Shown one piece after another: positions 11,102 through 42,381 of a stretch of DNA of 64,000 nt. Each line of letters begins with the position of its first letter. Position 1 is the first letter of the stretch. The DNA lies in assembly GCA_021203545.1 (NCBI GenBank), contig JAJQAZ010000038.1, positions 1 to 64,000 of the forward strand. The letters run 5' to 3'. Position numbers and translations under genes: made by a program. The DNA comes from Tannerellaceae bacterium (GTDB lineage Bacteria; Bacteroidota; Bacteroidia; Bacteroidales; Tannerellaceae). The notes beneath the pieces are model-generated. The model was not told the DNA's origin. It did not search any database and saw only the letters and a list, made by a program, of their open reading frames with translations.

Positions 11102-11360
11102 GAAAACACGAAAACACGAAAACAAAAACTCTTAAGCCCGCGACATTGGTATTCTGGTTACACCAAACAAAAGATTGCAAATAAAACATTCCAGTAACAC
11201 ATTGTTACAATTTTGCACTTTTAGCTAACACAGCCTTTTTACAAAATAAACAAACAGGAAAAAAAGAAAATACAGATACATGCAGTTAAGTCAATTCAGG
11301 TACATTTGTCAAAAGGAAAAATGGAGATCAAAGAGGGAAAAAGCACCAGTGGTTTGTTCC

Positions 11361-11400
11361 AAAAGCATCAATGCTTCGGGTAAAAAGCATTGATGCTTTT
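11361..11400. repeat. 16-bp perfect inverted repeat (hairpin)
   Basis: AAAAGCATCAATGCTT at 11361-11376 is the exact inverse of the sequence at 11385-11400, with an 8-base loop. Each arm is itself partly palindromic (AGCATNNATGCT). Function unknown. Confidence 0.7.
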
Positions 11401-11608
11401 AAGAAAGAGGGCCGGAGATCTGATTTTTCCCATTTTATGACCCGGTTTAAAGCCAGAAGCTCCGACAATACAACCTCTATCCGGATAACAAAAAGTACCC
11501 ATTTCCGCTCTTTACCTATCACTCGTAAGAAATTGCTGCCTATGCTTTTCGTTTTGTGCTTTCTTTTTGGTACCGGAAAAAACAGATCACAAACAAAGTG
11601 AAAAAACT

Positions 11609-36149: not shown

Positions 36150-36176
36150 AGGTTGTTTTTATTTAAAAGTAGTTAG

Positions 36177-36254
36177 CACTCGTTTCACTCGTTAGTAGTC
36201 ATCAGTCGCTTCGCTCTTTAGTAGTTATCACTCACTCTGTTCGTTAGTAGTTAA
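36177..36254. repeat. three 26-base tandem repeats
   Basis: Three consecutive 26-base units at 36177-36202, 36203-36228 and 36229-36254 share the pattern CA(C/G)TC-N9-(G/T)TTAGTAGT. Complementary ACTACT stretches at about 36280 and 36315 could pair with the TTAGTAGT cores. They lie upstream of the LytTR gene, between two regulators. No gene is seen in 36150-36435. Confidence 0.7.
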
Positions 36255-37198: not shown

Positions 37199-38374
37199 TT
37201 AATCCTTTCCGGATTTTCCGGGTTTATCCACTAAGGGTAAAGATACCTTAAAATACTCTTTCCGTGAAGAGATCACGATATCTTTTCCTGTCAACATAGT
37301 ATACCTTCCCCACAAATTTTTCAGGCCGATCCCACTGCCTGAAGATATCTCGTTTTTAGGCTGAATTTTATTGGAAACAACCAACATACCGTCCTGTGTC
37401 GTATAAATGTCGATTTGTAACGGATATTGTTTACTAATCACATTGTGTTTTACGGCATTCTCTATTAGCGGCAGGATACTCAGAATAGGTAAATTCCAAA
37501 GTAAATAAGGAGGATCCGCCTGAATAGAGAAAAAAAGTTTCCCTTCATACCGCACACCCAGCAAATAGGTATAAGCTTTTACAAATTGCAATTCTTCCGC
37601 TAAAGTAACCAACTCTTTAGTATTACTTTGCAATATATATCTGAATACCTGCGATAATTCATTCAGGTAAGTAAGTATCTGTTCCTTCCCACCACTTTGT
37701 ATCAGGGAATTGAGTCCATTGAGCGAATTAAAAAAGAAATAGGGATTAATCTGCCCCATCAAAGCATTGTAGGAGGTCTGTAATTTTTCAGTCTTCAGTC
37801 GTTCTACCTCCAGTTTCATTTCCTGGCGGGTATTCAAAATCCGGATCAGCAATACCAATAAAGCAACCGTAATAAACACAAAAATATGTTCCGTCACCAA
37901 AGGACGTGGAAACGGCGAAGGAACCAATGGCTTAAAAAAGGGAAAAGGAGGTTCCATAAACTCTTTTTCAGGCCCTCTGCCCGGAGGTCGTGCATGAAAT
38001 CCAAACGTATCTAACCCTAAAATCTCTTCAAAAATAAAATGTTGCAGAACCGGGTATAACTGAATCAGCAGAAAAGCAAGAATCAGATTGAGACCGGTAG
38101 CAAACAAAAAGACCTTAAACTCAGCCTTCAAACCCAAATACCCACCCAATTTATACGTACCGATAGTAGTATAAAAAAGAAACAGAGTAAAAAAGAAAAA
38201 CCAGGCCAGAGAGAAATAAAGAAAATAAACATTGGATGATGTATCCAAAGGAGCCATCCCACTCCGGTTGGAAATGCCATACCAACGCATTAACAGGGAG
38301 AAATTTACAAAAAGACTTAATAGTACCGAGACTAATAACCCTACCCAAAAATCATTTTTCTTATTCCGAAACAT
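37199..38374 (-). CDS. LytS/YehU-type sensor kinase lacking the phospho-acceptor His
   Basis: Membrane protein of the His_kinase (PF06580) type, start MFRNKKNDFWVGLL at 38374 (391 residues). It has four membrane segments between residues 10 and 205 and a kinase domain. The conserved dimerisation box NPHFLFN here reads GQINPYFFFNSLNGLN: the phospho-acceptor His is Tyr (TAT). The ATP site looks normal (LIENAVKHNV, SGSGIGLKNLWGRY). If the base is correct, this protein cannot autophosphorylate at the usual site. It is paired with the LytR regulator downstream. Confidence 0.9.
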   Translation of the reverse strand: MFRNKKNDFWVGLLVSVLLSLFVNFSLLMRWYGISNRSGMAPLDTSSNVYFLYFSLAWFFFFTLFLFYTTIGTYKLGGYLGLKAEFKVFLFATGLNLILAFLLIQLYPVLQHFIFEEILGLDTFGFHARPPGRGPEKEFMEPPFPFFKPLVPSPFPRPLVTEHIFVFITVALLVLLIRILNTRQEMKLEVERLKTEKLQTSYNALMGQINPYFFFNSLNGLNSLIQSGGKEQILTYLNELSQVFRYILQSNTKELVTLAEELQFVKAYTYLLGVRYEGKLFFSIQADPPYLLWNLPILSILPLIENAVKHNVISKQYPLQIDIYTTQDGMLVVSNKIQPKNEISSGSGIGLKNLWGRYTMLTGKDIVISSRKEYFKVSLPLVDKPGKSGKD

Positions 38375-38480
38375 ATGGTCTTTATAATAATAAAGACGAC
38401 AAATATATAGATAACTTACCAAAACACCCTTCCCACCCCGGGGAAACGGAAAAATTAACCGATGAAACGCCTGAACAAAA

Positions 38481-38608
38481 CTCTCTACAGAAGTTTTTTT
38501 GTGAAAAAGTTTGCCACTTTGCCACACCATCAAAGCTAACATATTATCTATCAAACACATAAATCCCAAAACGAGCGATGCAAAGTATGATGCAAAGGTG
38601 ATGCAAAC
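38481..38608. repeat. left arm of a duplicated 5' region upstream of the sensor kinase
   Basis: The part 38577-38608 is the perfect inverse (32 bases) of 39444-39475. The outer part 38481-38526 is an imperfect inverse of 39530-39571 (shared GCAAAGTGGCAAACTTTT and GTAGAGAG). The stretch between the two pairs is about the same length in both arms. Confidence 0.85.
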
Positions 38609-38778
38609 GTTTTAGTTTGCTACCTTGTTGACTATTTTATCCTCTTTTAAGATCTCTCCGACTATAATTTCTTCCTGTTTTCATTCGCTGCAACAGGGTA
38701 GTATCGTTACAACGGCATCGCCGGGCCATTACGGTGACATTGATGTGCCGTCAGAGTGCCACTGGCGTGTCAAGAGCC

Positions 38779-38866
38779 TGGCACAGCAGTGCCATTCTAT
38801 TGGCACGATAGTGCCCCGGTGATGGCACAGCAATGCCTTCGTGATGGCACACAAGTGTCTGCGAGA
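38779..38866. repeat. 22-base tandem palindromic repeats (four units)
   Basis: Four exact 22-base periods start at 38779, 38801, 38823 and 38845. Each has TGGCAC, four variable bases, a pairing GTGCC-like half, then a 6-base linker. Each unit can form a small hairpin. Related GTGCC words occur in the 80 bases upstream (e.g. GATGTGCCGTCAGAGTGCCA near 38742), suggesting older, decayed units. There are no unique spacers of CRISPR type. Confidence 0.8.
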
Positions 38867-38973
38867 TGTTAATAGAATCTTCTGGTTAAGTGTTCTTTCA
38901 GAACACCATTTACCATCCAATTACCATATCCATAAAATCCGGTATAGTCCTGAAATTTTACCCTCTTAAATCA

Positions 38974-39419
38974 CTCTCTACACACATCTCTTCACCCTCG
39001 TAGAGGGTAGTATATCTTAGACCCCGGCAACCCTCTACCATTTATACATATCTTTTTATGTATACTTATTTGTAAGCCCGGGGGCTTGAATGTAAACCGT
39101 CGATCAGCCTTAGCTAATAACTATAGTAAATCTGTTAAGGGGCAGTTTAGTTCAGACCACGGCAGAATGAGCGTAGCGAATGCCACCGTGGGTTAGCATA
39201 TACCCCATTTATTCGAGCTGAAAGCCCAGCTAAAACCAACTACAAATTCATTTTCAGCCTCGTAACTAATTCGTAATTATAGAGTTGCCCCTTCAGGGCG
39301 CAGATCGTATCTGGTGTCTGAACCCACGGTGCCATTCGCTACGCTCATTCTGCCGTGGGCTAAACTAAGTTGCCCTTTTCAAGGGCGGAAAACACATATA
39401 AGAGGTGTGTAAAGAGTAG
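38974..39419. repeat. long imperfect palindromic intergenic element
   Basis: The ends are inverted copies (ACTCTCTACACACATCTCTT at left; AAGAGGTGTGTAAAGAGT at right). Inside, 39157-39194 and 39321-39358 are a 38-base inverted pair with one mismatch, containing AATGAGCGTAGCGAATG. The left end (CACCCTCGTAGAGGGTA) recurs at 61721 in another element. Confidence 0.8.
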
Positions 39420-39443
39420 TACAAAGATGATGCAAAGTTTTTG

Positions 39444-39571
39444 GTTTGCATCACCTTTGCATCATACTTTGCATCACCTGATTTAGGACTTATACCAGTA
39501 ACAACCAAAACATTAACTTTAAGCGTGAAGCAAAGTGGCAAACTTTTCGACTAAAAAACATTTGTAGAGAG
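39444..39571. repeat. right arm of the duplicated 5' region, upstream of valS
   Basis: The counterpart of 38481-38608 in inverse orientation: a 32-base perfect pair plus a looser outer pair. Relative to their own genes, valS and the sensor kinase carry this sequence in the same orientation. Confidence 0.85.
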
Positions 39572-39759: not shown

Positions 39760-42381
39760 ATGGAAATTGCAAGTAAGTACAACCCCGCAGAGGTTGAAGG
39801 GAAATGGTACCAGTATTGGTTAGATAACGGATTTTTTAAATCGGTTCCGGACGAACGCGAACCTTATACAATTGTCATCCCTCCTCCTAACGTCACCGGC
39901 GTACTGCATATGGGGCACATGCTTAACAATACAATACAGGATATTCTTATCAGACGAGCCCGTATGCAGGGGAAAAATGCGTGTTGGGTTCCGGGAACCG
40001 ACCACGCGTCGATTGCTACGGAAGCCAAAGTGGTAGATAAACTGTCCCAGAAAGGAATAAAGAAAACCGACCTCAGCCGGGATGAGTTCCTGAAACATGC
40101 CTGGGAGTGGAAAGAAGAATATGGAGGGGTAATCCTGAAACAATTACGTAAACTGGGCGCATCCTGCGATTGGGATCGCACGGCCTTTACGATGGATGAA
40201 ATCCGTTCGAAAAGTGTAATTAAGGTTTTCACAGATCTATATAAAAAAGGGGAAATATACCGGGGTGTACGTATGGTAAACTGGGACCCACAAGCCCTGA
40301 CAGCACTTTCTGATGAAGAAGTTATATACAAAGAAGAACATAGCAAGCTTTTCTACCTTCGCTACAAAATTGAAGGAGAAGAGAATTATATAATCATTGC
40401 CACAACCCGTCCTGAAACGATTTTGGGTGATACGGCTGTATGCGTAAATCCGAACGATCCGCGTTATACTTTCCTGAAAGGGAAAAAAGTAATTGTTCCG
40501 TTGGTAAACCGGGCGATACCGGTTATTATGGACGATTATGTGGATATGGAATTCGGTACCGGCTGCCTGAAAGTGACACCGGCACACGATGTGAACGACT
40601 ATATGCTGGGAGAAAAATACAATCTTCCAACCATTGATATTTTTAACGACAATGGTACAATCAGTGAAGCAGGCGGGTTGTATGTAGGAATGGACCGTTT
40701 TGAGGTACGGAAACAGATTTCGCTGGATCTGGCGGAAGCCGGGTTGATGGAGAAGGTGGAAGACTATGATAATAAAGTGGGGTACTCCGAACGTACACAC
40801 GTACCCATCGAACCTAAATTGTCGATGCAGTGGTTCCTGAAAATGCAGGAACTGGCCAAACCGGCGCTTGATTCGGTTATGGAAGATGAGATCCGTTTTT
40901 ATCCTCCTAAATTGAAAAATACCTACCGCCACTGGATGGAGAATATCAAAGACTGGTGTATTTCACGCCAGTTATGGTGGGGACACCGGATTCCGGCCTA
41001 TTACCTGCCGGAGGGTGGTTTTGTGGTAGCCGAAACAGCTGATGAAGCCCTTGAACTGGCTAAAGAGAAAACGGGGAATGCAAATCTGACTGTGGCCGAC
41101 CTGCGCCAGGATGAAGATTGCCTGGATACCTGGTTCTCTTCGTGGCTGTGGCCGATCTCGCTGTTTGACGGAATTAATAATCCGGGTAATGAGGAGATCA
41201 GCTATTACTATCCTACCAGCGATCTGGTAACGGCACCCGATATTATTTTCTTCTGGGTAGCACGGATGATCATGGCCGGATACGAATACGAACACGAAAA
41301 GCCTTTCAAAAATGTATATTTCACCGGATTGGTACGGGATAAACAGGGACGTAAAATGTCAAAATCGCTGGGTAATTCACCCGATCCGTTGAACCTGATT
41401 GATCAATACGGGGCTGACGGTGTACGTATGGGTCTGATGCTGACCGCTCCTGCCGGAAATGATATTCCTTTCGATGAAGCATTATGTGAACAGGGCCGTA
41501 ATTTCAATAACAAGATATGGAATGCGTTCCGGCTGGTAAAAGGCTGGAAGGTCGATGAAACAATTGCACAGCCCGAAGCTTCGGCCATTGCTATCCAATG
41601 GTTTCAAAACCAGTTGAGTAAAACCATACTCGAAATGGACGACCTGTTCGGAAAATACCGCCTGAACGAAGCGATCATGGCAGTATACAAACTGTTCTGG
41701 GATGAATTTTCTTCGTGGTTCCTTGAAATTATCAAGCCGGGTTACGAACAACCGGTAGATAAACAGACTTATCATGCGGCTCTGGGATTCTTTGATTCAT
41801 TACTCCGCCTGTTGCATCCGTTCATGCCGTTTATTACCGAAGAGTTATGGCAGGCACTGGCTCCACGCAAAGAGGGCGAAAGTATTATGGTTTCCCTTTA
41901 TCCGGAAGTTACACCGGACGAACCAGGCTTACTGGCTTCTTTCGAAATTGTAAAAGAGATTATCGGAGGTGTACGTACGGTACGGTTACAAAAAAACATA
42001 CCGAACAAAGAGACTCTCGAACTACAGGTATTAGGAGCACATGATAACCGGTTCAATCCGGTAATTAAGAAAATGTGTAATCTGACAGGAATTGAGAAAA
42101 CAGGTGAAAAAAGTACCGGCGCGGTATCGTTTCTGGTGGGAACAACCGAATATGCTGTTCCGCTGGGAAATATGCTCAATGTAGAAGAAGAACTAACAAA
42201 ACTGCAGGAAGAGTTAGTATATCAACAGGGCTTCCTGGCTTCTGTTTTGAAAAAGTTAAGCAATGAAAGTTTTGTAAGTAAAGCTCCGGCTAAAGTAATC
42301 GAGATGGAACGCAAGAAGCAGGCTGATGCCGAAAGTAAAATACGAAGCCTGGAAGAAAGTATCGCGGCGTTAAGACAGTAA
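39760..42381 (+). CDS. valS: valine--tRNA ligase
   Basis: Class I aminoacyl-tRNA synthetase charging tRNA-Val. The HIGH box is [15 protein letters not shown] (near residue 50), the editing domain contains [14 protein letters not shown], and the KMSKS box is [15 protein letters not shown] (near residue 531). The C-terminal coiled coil ([16 protein letters not shown] to the end) is typical. The 873 residues match the family. Confidence 0.98.

Follow-up and report, generated by a model that had tools for sequence, protein, structure and literature searches.

A 22-bp array of inverted half-sites in a Tannerellaceae genome and the linkage of such repeats to VapE loci, often with HU-HIG genes, in Bacteroidales

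Two described repeat systems are closest to the arrays reported here. The BrickBuilt MITE of Porphyromonas gingivalis has a 23-nt tandem repeat and is present in 19 copies, many of which carry a leader and a tail (PMC4596501). In the parts of that paper that describe the element, BrickBuilt resembles the present arrays in being a dispersed, intergenic tandem repeat of Bacteroidales with a nearly equal period and a partly conserved unit, and dyad symmetry, small inverted-repeat ends and unit-number differences between strains are mentioned for it (PMC4596501). Unlike BrickBuilt, the arrays reported here have a period of 22, with 23 as a minority spacing, and 41 other arrays with the half-site described below, TGGCAY, are without the terminal inverted repeats (TIRs) that bound the array studied here. 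The same parts of the paper report no link to HU-HIG or VapE, and the two repeats are compared by description only, not by sequence.

The second system is the REP/BIME-RAYT pair. As described in the relevant parts of two papers (PMC2817692, PMC3733652), it also consists of dispersed extragenic palindromes in arrays, with species-specific types and a likely partner gene. The partner proposed here is VapE/HU-HIG and not Y1. The present arrays also differ in their strict 22-bp frame, in arms that are not kept complementary and in a half-site sequence that is not conserved across the class. They may work like a REP/RAYT pair, but they lack two of its defining traits, Y1 linkage and arm complementarity.

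The HU-HIG (PF18291) and BT4734/VapE (PF08800, PF05272) proteins of Bacteroidales are encoded by genes that adjoin arrays of this frame. To our knowledge, no array has been described for either protein family. No description of such arrays was found in searches of open-licence literature on Parabacteroides and Bacteroidetes palindrome arrays, on REP/BIME or on HU-HIG with VapE, which is weak evidence of absence.

The window, the whole 64-kb stretch of Tannerellaceae DNA that was analysed, contains an array of seven 22-bp units at 38713-38866. Here and below, arrays, the element and its internal repeat are given without strand. Each unit reads TGGCAY-N4-RTGCCA-N6, with TGGCAY as the left and RTGCCA as the right half-site and free bases at the N positions. 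The four best units (38779-38866) start at 38779, 38801, 38823 and 38845, exactly 22 bp apart, as a sequence-only reading of this DNA had claimed. The decayed units that it mentioned upstream are present as three weaker units in the same phase, at 38713, 38735 and 38757. The motif TGGCACNNNNGTGCC, with two or fewer mismatches, has 15 matches in the window, 12 of which lie within 38713-38866, and 7.9 are expected window-wide. At exact 22-bp spacing the four best units reach a score of 44 of 48; the maximum in 200 Markov-simulated 64-kb sequences is 31. A second 22-bp array, with an AAGCAT-like half-site, is found by a sequence-blind scan in a gap between open reading frames (ORFs) at 11340-11421. 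Elsewhere in the window, a 26-bp tandem repeat of 3.3 copies (36168-36253) lies between two LytTR-type regulator genes that were named by eye.

Two points of the sequence-only reading stand in part. It described the unit as a palindrome of the TGGCAC-N4-GTGCC type. The right half-site, however, opens 34 of the 42 arrays of the TGGCAY type and the left half-site closes 29 of them; in this tally the window array itself has a left half-site at both its start and its end. Because arrays usually open with the right and close with the left half-site, the natural module is RTGCCA-N6-TGGCAY with 4-base separators, rather than a TGGCAC-N4-GTGCCA hairpin. This module is an 18-bp inverted repeat that recurs every 22 bp, a layout that a dimeric DNA-binding protein would require. 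The reading also equated the period with two helical turns. The 22-bp spacing is exact, but it corresponds to about 2.1 turns at 10.5 bp per turn, and "exactly two turns" is therefore approximate.

Arrays of this type recur in the same genome and in related genomes. A single-unit pattern with one mismatch has 43 matches per strand in the whole genome, compared with 15 and 9 for a reversed control, and arrays of the half-site type were read at ten loci, the window included. A two-unit pattern that permitted periods of 20-23 finds arrays in 6 of 123 family genomes, and all matches listed have a period of 22 or 23. With three mismatches it matches 15 of the 123 family genomes and 6 of 393 order genomes; two of these six belong to one other family and have a single weak match each. 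A degenerate half-site pattern with one mismatch is matched in 35 of the 123 family genomes (eight with one match only, the richest with 72) and in 11 of the 393 order genomes, four of which have a single match that may be due to chance. The array is thus neither unique nor variable in phase, since arrays recur in genomes of the family and their phase is almost invariant. A phage or plasmid origin of the TGGCAY array is rejected, as the strict TGGCAY pattern has no match in viral contigs and the window region has none in plasmids. Four matches of a GAAAC pattern in viral contigs are, by eye, not arrays of this kind.

The rule that these arrays have in common is spacing, not sequence. A scan that leaves the letters unspecified, and scores only the agreement among the six half-sites of three consecutive units, was applied to 400-kb samples of G076 (P. 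distasonis) and its congener G075 and to the 64-kb window. At a score of at least 31 and a period of 22, there are 10, 15 and 2 inverted-repeat clusters, respectively. Periods of 18-21 and 24-27 yield none, and a period of 23 yields 2, 0 and 0. The same scan finds no cluster scoring 29 or more in 2 Mb of Markov sequence. The half-sites differ between arrays and include TGGCAY, RGAAAC, TGGAAC, TGATAA, AGTACT-like and other words. Within the TGGCAY type (41 fetched loci and the window), TGGCA-Nk-TGCCA with k up to 24 has k=6 in 102 of 104 cases, and TGCCA-Nk-TGGCA has k=6 in 115 of 132, with k=7 in 5, k=10 in 1 and k=16-17, the next half-site, in 11; these counts lean towards k=6 because the loci were collected with patterns near that spacing.

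The spacers change while the half-sites are kept. At six sites compared between G076 and G077, half-site cores differ at 9 of 225 positions (4.0%) and flanks, which include coding sequence, at 36 of 982 (3.7%), versus 24 of 89 (27%) for loops and 21 of 101 (21%) for linkers; site E is shared only in its right part. Of the 24 loop changes, 19 fall at sites A and C, where entire arrays may therefore have been replaced or converted. Site F is exactly two units, or 44 bp, longer in one of these genomes than in the other. At the ilvA site, two P. distasonis genomes are exactly 44 bp apart in length, with flanks 98.6 and 99.3% identical; at the peroxidase site, the same two genomes show no unit-number difference. 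The label of minisatellite, which the sequence-only reading offered as an alternative, is true as a description: copy number varies by whole units, with the ilvA site exactly two units (44 bp) longer in one of the two P. distasonis genomes than in the other. In the array upstream of the VapE gene of these two genomes (L418 and L360), one linker is, by eye, inverted between them, and the inversion ends at half-sites. Some breaks in similarity between related genomes lie inside or at arrays (L144 compared with L134; the L142 and L147 sites compared with G090). In G000, at the start of L110 and the end of L114 (contigs C78 and C179), an array passes into a 55-base contig end that the two contigs share in inverted orientation; a repeat or insertion element may sit in an array there.

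The window array lies inside a mobile-looking element of 1.09 kb (1,091 bp) at 38481-39571. The element is bounded by a left TIR at 38481-38608 on the forward strand and a right TIR at 39444-39571 on the reverse strand. It also contains a second dispersed repeat of about 270 bp (39132-39401) with 58-bp inverted arms at 39137-39194 and 39321-39378, which has many copies elsewhere in the same genome. To its left is a LytS-type histidine kinase gene (37199-38569, reverse strand) and to its right a valyl-tRNA synthetase gene, valS (39760-42381, forward strand), both named by eye. With its TTG start the kinase ORF extends into the element; by eye, an ATG near 38374 is the likelier start. The array is placed 5' of the kinase gene and is an exception to the preference of arrays for gene ends.

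The kinase-valS gap of four sister genomes contains no match to the window TIRs and no TGGCAY array. Scanned without regard to sequence, the same gap contains 22-bp repeats of other words, with scores of 33 in G003, 29 in G001, 27 in G002 and 24 in G004, where a score of 27 is reached by Markov sequence a few times per Mb. The half-site words in this gap differ among G000, G003 and G001, an instance of word turnover from species to species at a single site.

None of the 41 other loci of the TGGCAY type contains a match to the window TIRs. These TIRs also bound five miniature copies of 663-715 bp (L366-L370), three of which contain two units of another half-site type, 22 bp apart. Both ends of a 3.3-kb element, L371, match the right window TIR at 80 and 83%. 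L371 encodes HU-HIG and BT4734/VapE. Upstream of its HU gene there is an array with a score of 30 and a half-site type similar to that inside the miniature copies. The two L371 proteins have no match in the window, and no module with the TGGCAY half-site type of the window was found among the loci analysed.

Arrays in other genomes are also found at loci with VapE homologues. The array lies between HU and VapE in L317, upstream of VapE in L360 and upstream of HU in L274. HU-HIG and VapE genes are both present in L317, as in L371, and L274 contains HU and a VapE homologue; in L360 VapE is present and HU was not found in the locus. The VapE linkage of L317, L360 and L274 is biased, because these loci were found through the array pattern. 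For this reason, 23 loci were taken by VapE protein similarity alone, with the VapE protein of L371 or of L317 as the query. They comprise the top Bacteroidales rows of a plasmid collection and gut scaffolds H1-H12, H14-H16, H40, H51-H56 and H59; H13, H57, H58, H60, H61 and more distant rows were left out. For each locus, the strongest tandem lag among 12-40 was determined over the 1 kb that precedes VapE, counted from the annotated start or, where VapE is unannotated, from the start of the match.

Of the 23 VapE loci, 14 have a best upstream lag of exactly 22. Grouped by sequence, the 23 loci fall into 11 clusters, and a locus with a best lag of 22 is present in 7 of them. Agreement at lag 22 reaches at least 50 of 88 in 11 of the 23 loci, versus 26 of the 798 1-kb windows taken as controls in G076 and G075. 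Three of the 14, L419, L422 and L438, have weak agreement at their best lag of 22 (41, 41 and 43 of 88). By the sequence-blind palindrome score, with a threshold of at least 28, period 22 is found in 14 of the 23 loci, period 21 in 6 and period 23 in 2, and the remaining periods of 18-27 in none. Lag 22 is not the single best lag in nine loci: the best is 21 in L425, a tie of 21 and 22 in L430, 36 in L427-L429, 23 in L433, 20 in L421, 30 in L431 and 28 in L437. Four P. massiliensis loci (L425, L427, L428 and L430) have repeats near VapE at periods 21, 22 and 36, which may represent a looser form of the frame. No VapE and only two weak HU matches were found in the G076 and G075 samples (400 kb each), so these 800 kb could not test the linkage. 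With the VapE protein as query, no relative was confirmed in viral contigs.

The linkage to HU is weaker. By tblastn, HU is found in 11 of the 23 VapE loci, namely 9 of the 14 with a best lag of 22 and 2 of the 9 others. Eight HU proteins from such loci were scanned, and every one matches HU-HIG, PF18291. The annotated HU gene is divergent from VapE in L419, L420, L421, L424 and L426; in L432 the VapE gene is unannotated. HU was not found by tblastn in the stretch examined for the other 12 loci, including L417, L418, L434, L435 and L439, which have a best lag of 22. As HU is absent from about half of the VapE loci, there is room for another binder, or for an HU encoded elsewhere.

We consider it slightly on the probable side that the arrays are cis sites of VapE/HU-HIG modules that have spread as solo copies, and that they act as DNA recognition arrays. 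Short half-sites in alternating orientation, on average 11 bp apart, would provide a 22-bp frame to which a dimeric or oligomerising protein could bind. The array class would belong to Bacteroidales modules that encode BT4734/VapE, often with an adjoining gene for HU-HIG, an HU-like DNA-binding family. Within a module, the array between or just upstream of the genes is probably an operator, a recombination or replication site, or both. Gene-less copies would have dispersed across the genome, both as solo arrays, which commonly follow a stop codon closely, and inside TIR-bounded miniature elements such as the window element. Each lineage would have its own half-site sequence, or dialect. HU-HIG is the natural candidate reader, because it is a DNA-binding protein whose gene often adjoins the array. 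VapE may act in replication, transposition or regulation. Both the role of HU-HIG as binder and the spread of the arrays by the module are inferred.

A broader version of this proposal is more tentative, and we hold it to be somewhat less probable than not. It supposes many parallel VapE/HU-HIG lineages, each with its own half-site word in a common 22-bp grammar. HU-HIG would coat the array and VapE would help to copy or move it, and the whole would be a selfish or regulatory system coded by spacing.

The alternative that survives best, although we consider it unlikely, is that the arrays are REP/BIME-like selfish or nearly neutral repeats, dispersed palindromes that were copied by a transposase and are passively kept, with no dedicated binder today. 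The arrays are dispersed, intergenic and near stop codons, their copy number shifts by whole units, and G004 contains two near-identical arrays (L117 and L122) in different contexts, all of which would be expected of such repeats. Passive maintenance does not account well for a spacing that is held while the spacer sequence turns over. The arms also do not covary, whereas preserved palindromes are reported in the relevant part of the RAYT paper (PMC2817692). The Y1 (RAYT-type) domain, PF01797, is matched in four of the six genomes searched, but at E<=0.001 it has no match in the array-rich G076 and G077. The 11 Y1 loci (L151-L161) have single units only, in four of them. A RAYT link of the arrays is unsupported on both counts.

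Function at the RNA level, as tandem hairpins at mRNA 3' ends that stabilise or terminate transcripts, is improbable. The position of the arrays fits it to some extent. In tandem gaps, the array is nearer the upstream stop in 14 of 18 cases in the TGGCAY set and in 26 of 35 in a second set. Convergent gaps are enriched in the TGGCAY set (13/34 vs 6/49, p=0.008, with a 150-bp limit for control gaps and after exclusion of the 8 of 42 arrays that lie within ORFs or at contig edges), but not in the second set (10/54 vs 6/44, p=0.59). Where a TGGCAY array adjoins only one gene end, T-G exceeds C-A by 22 to 11 at the innermost pair, read on the transcribed strand; at convergent gene ends, however, T-G is found 6 times and C-A 10 times.

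The arms do not behave as hairpin stems. Their covariation does not exceed chance whether they are paired across the 4-base or the 6-base spacer, with one of 48 position tests at p=0.042, and in one family perfect arm identity is rarer than expected (7% vs 24%). In some species the arms are systematically unequal, for example TGAAAC opposite TGGAAC, which gives G-U on one strand and A-C on the other. In G075 and G018, with other half-site types, the G-U-rich strand agrees with transcription in 8 cases and disagrees in 12. Among 47 of 56 arrays, 25 agree, 18 disagree and 4 tie; the 9 left out are divergent. Spacer lengths are also held more tightly than hairpin loops should need. RNA hairpins as the main function are rejected by the arm covariation and strand-orientation tests. 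Three Rfam matches are all far under their gathering scores.

The evidence favours DNA-level recognition over RNA hairpins, because loops and linkers vary, arms do not covary and strand orientation is independent of transcription. The protein-binding array of the sequence-only reading is likewise favoured by the conserved half-sites, the free spacers of near-fixed length and the failed RNA-hairpin tests, from which binding is inferred. That gene-end arrays are topology or roadblock sites that bind gyrase or a nucleoid protein and absorb supercoils, like E. coli BIME-2, is very improbable, as the gene-end position, in one set between convergent genes, and the gyrase binding given for BIME-2 in part of one paper (PMC2817692) fit it, but changing half-site dialects misfit a conserved enzyme and the convergent enrichment is confined to one set.

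Under the preferred reading, as cis sites of VapE/HU-HIG modules, the 22-bp arrays are a chromosomal repeat class of gut bacteria, undescribed as far as we have found, that follows one rule, a 22-bp frame with free letters. The frame provides a simple search rule that ignores sequence. The reading names concrete protein candidates for the array class and suggests a role for the HU-HIG and BT4734/VapE families. It also suggests that RAYT may not be the only means by which palindrome arrays are dispersed, and that there may be a second one.
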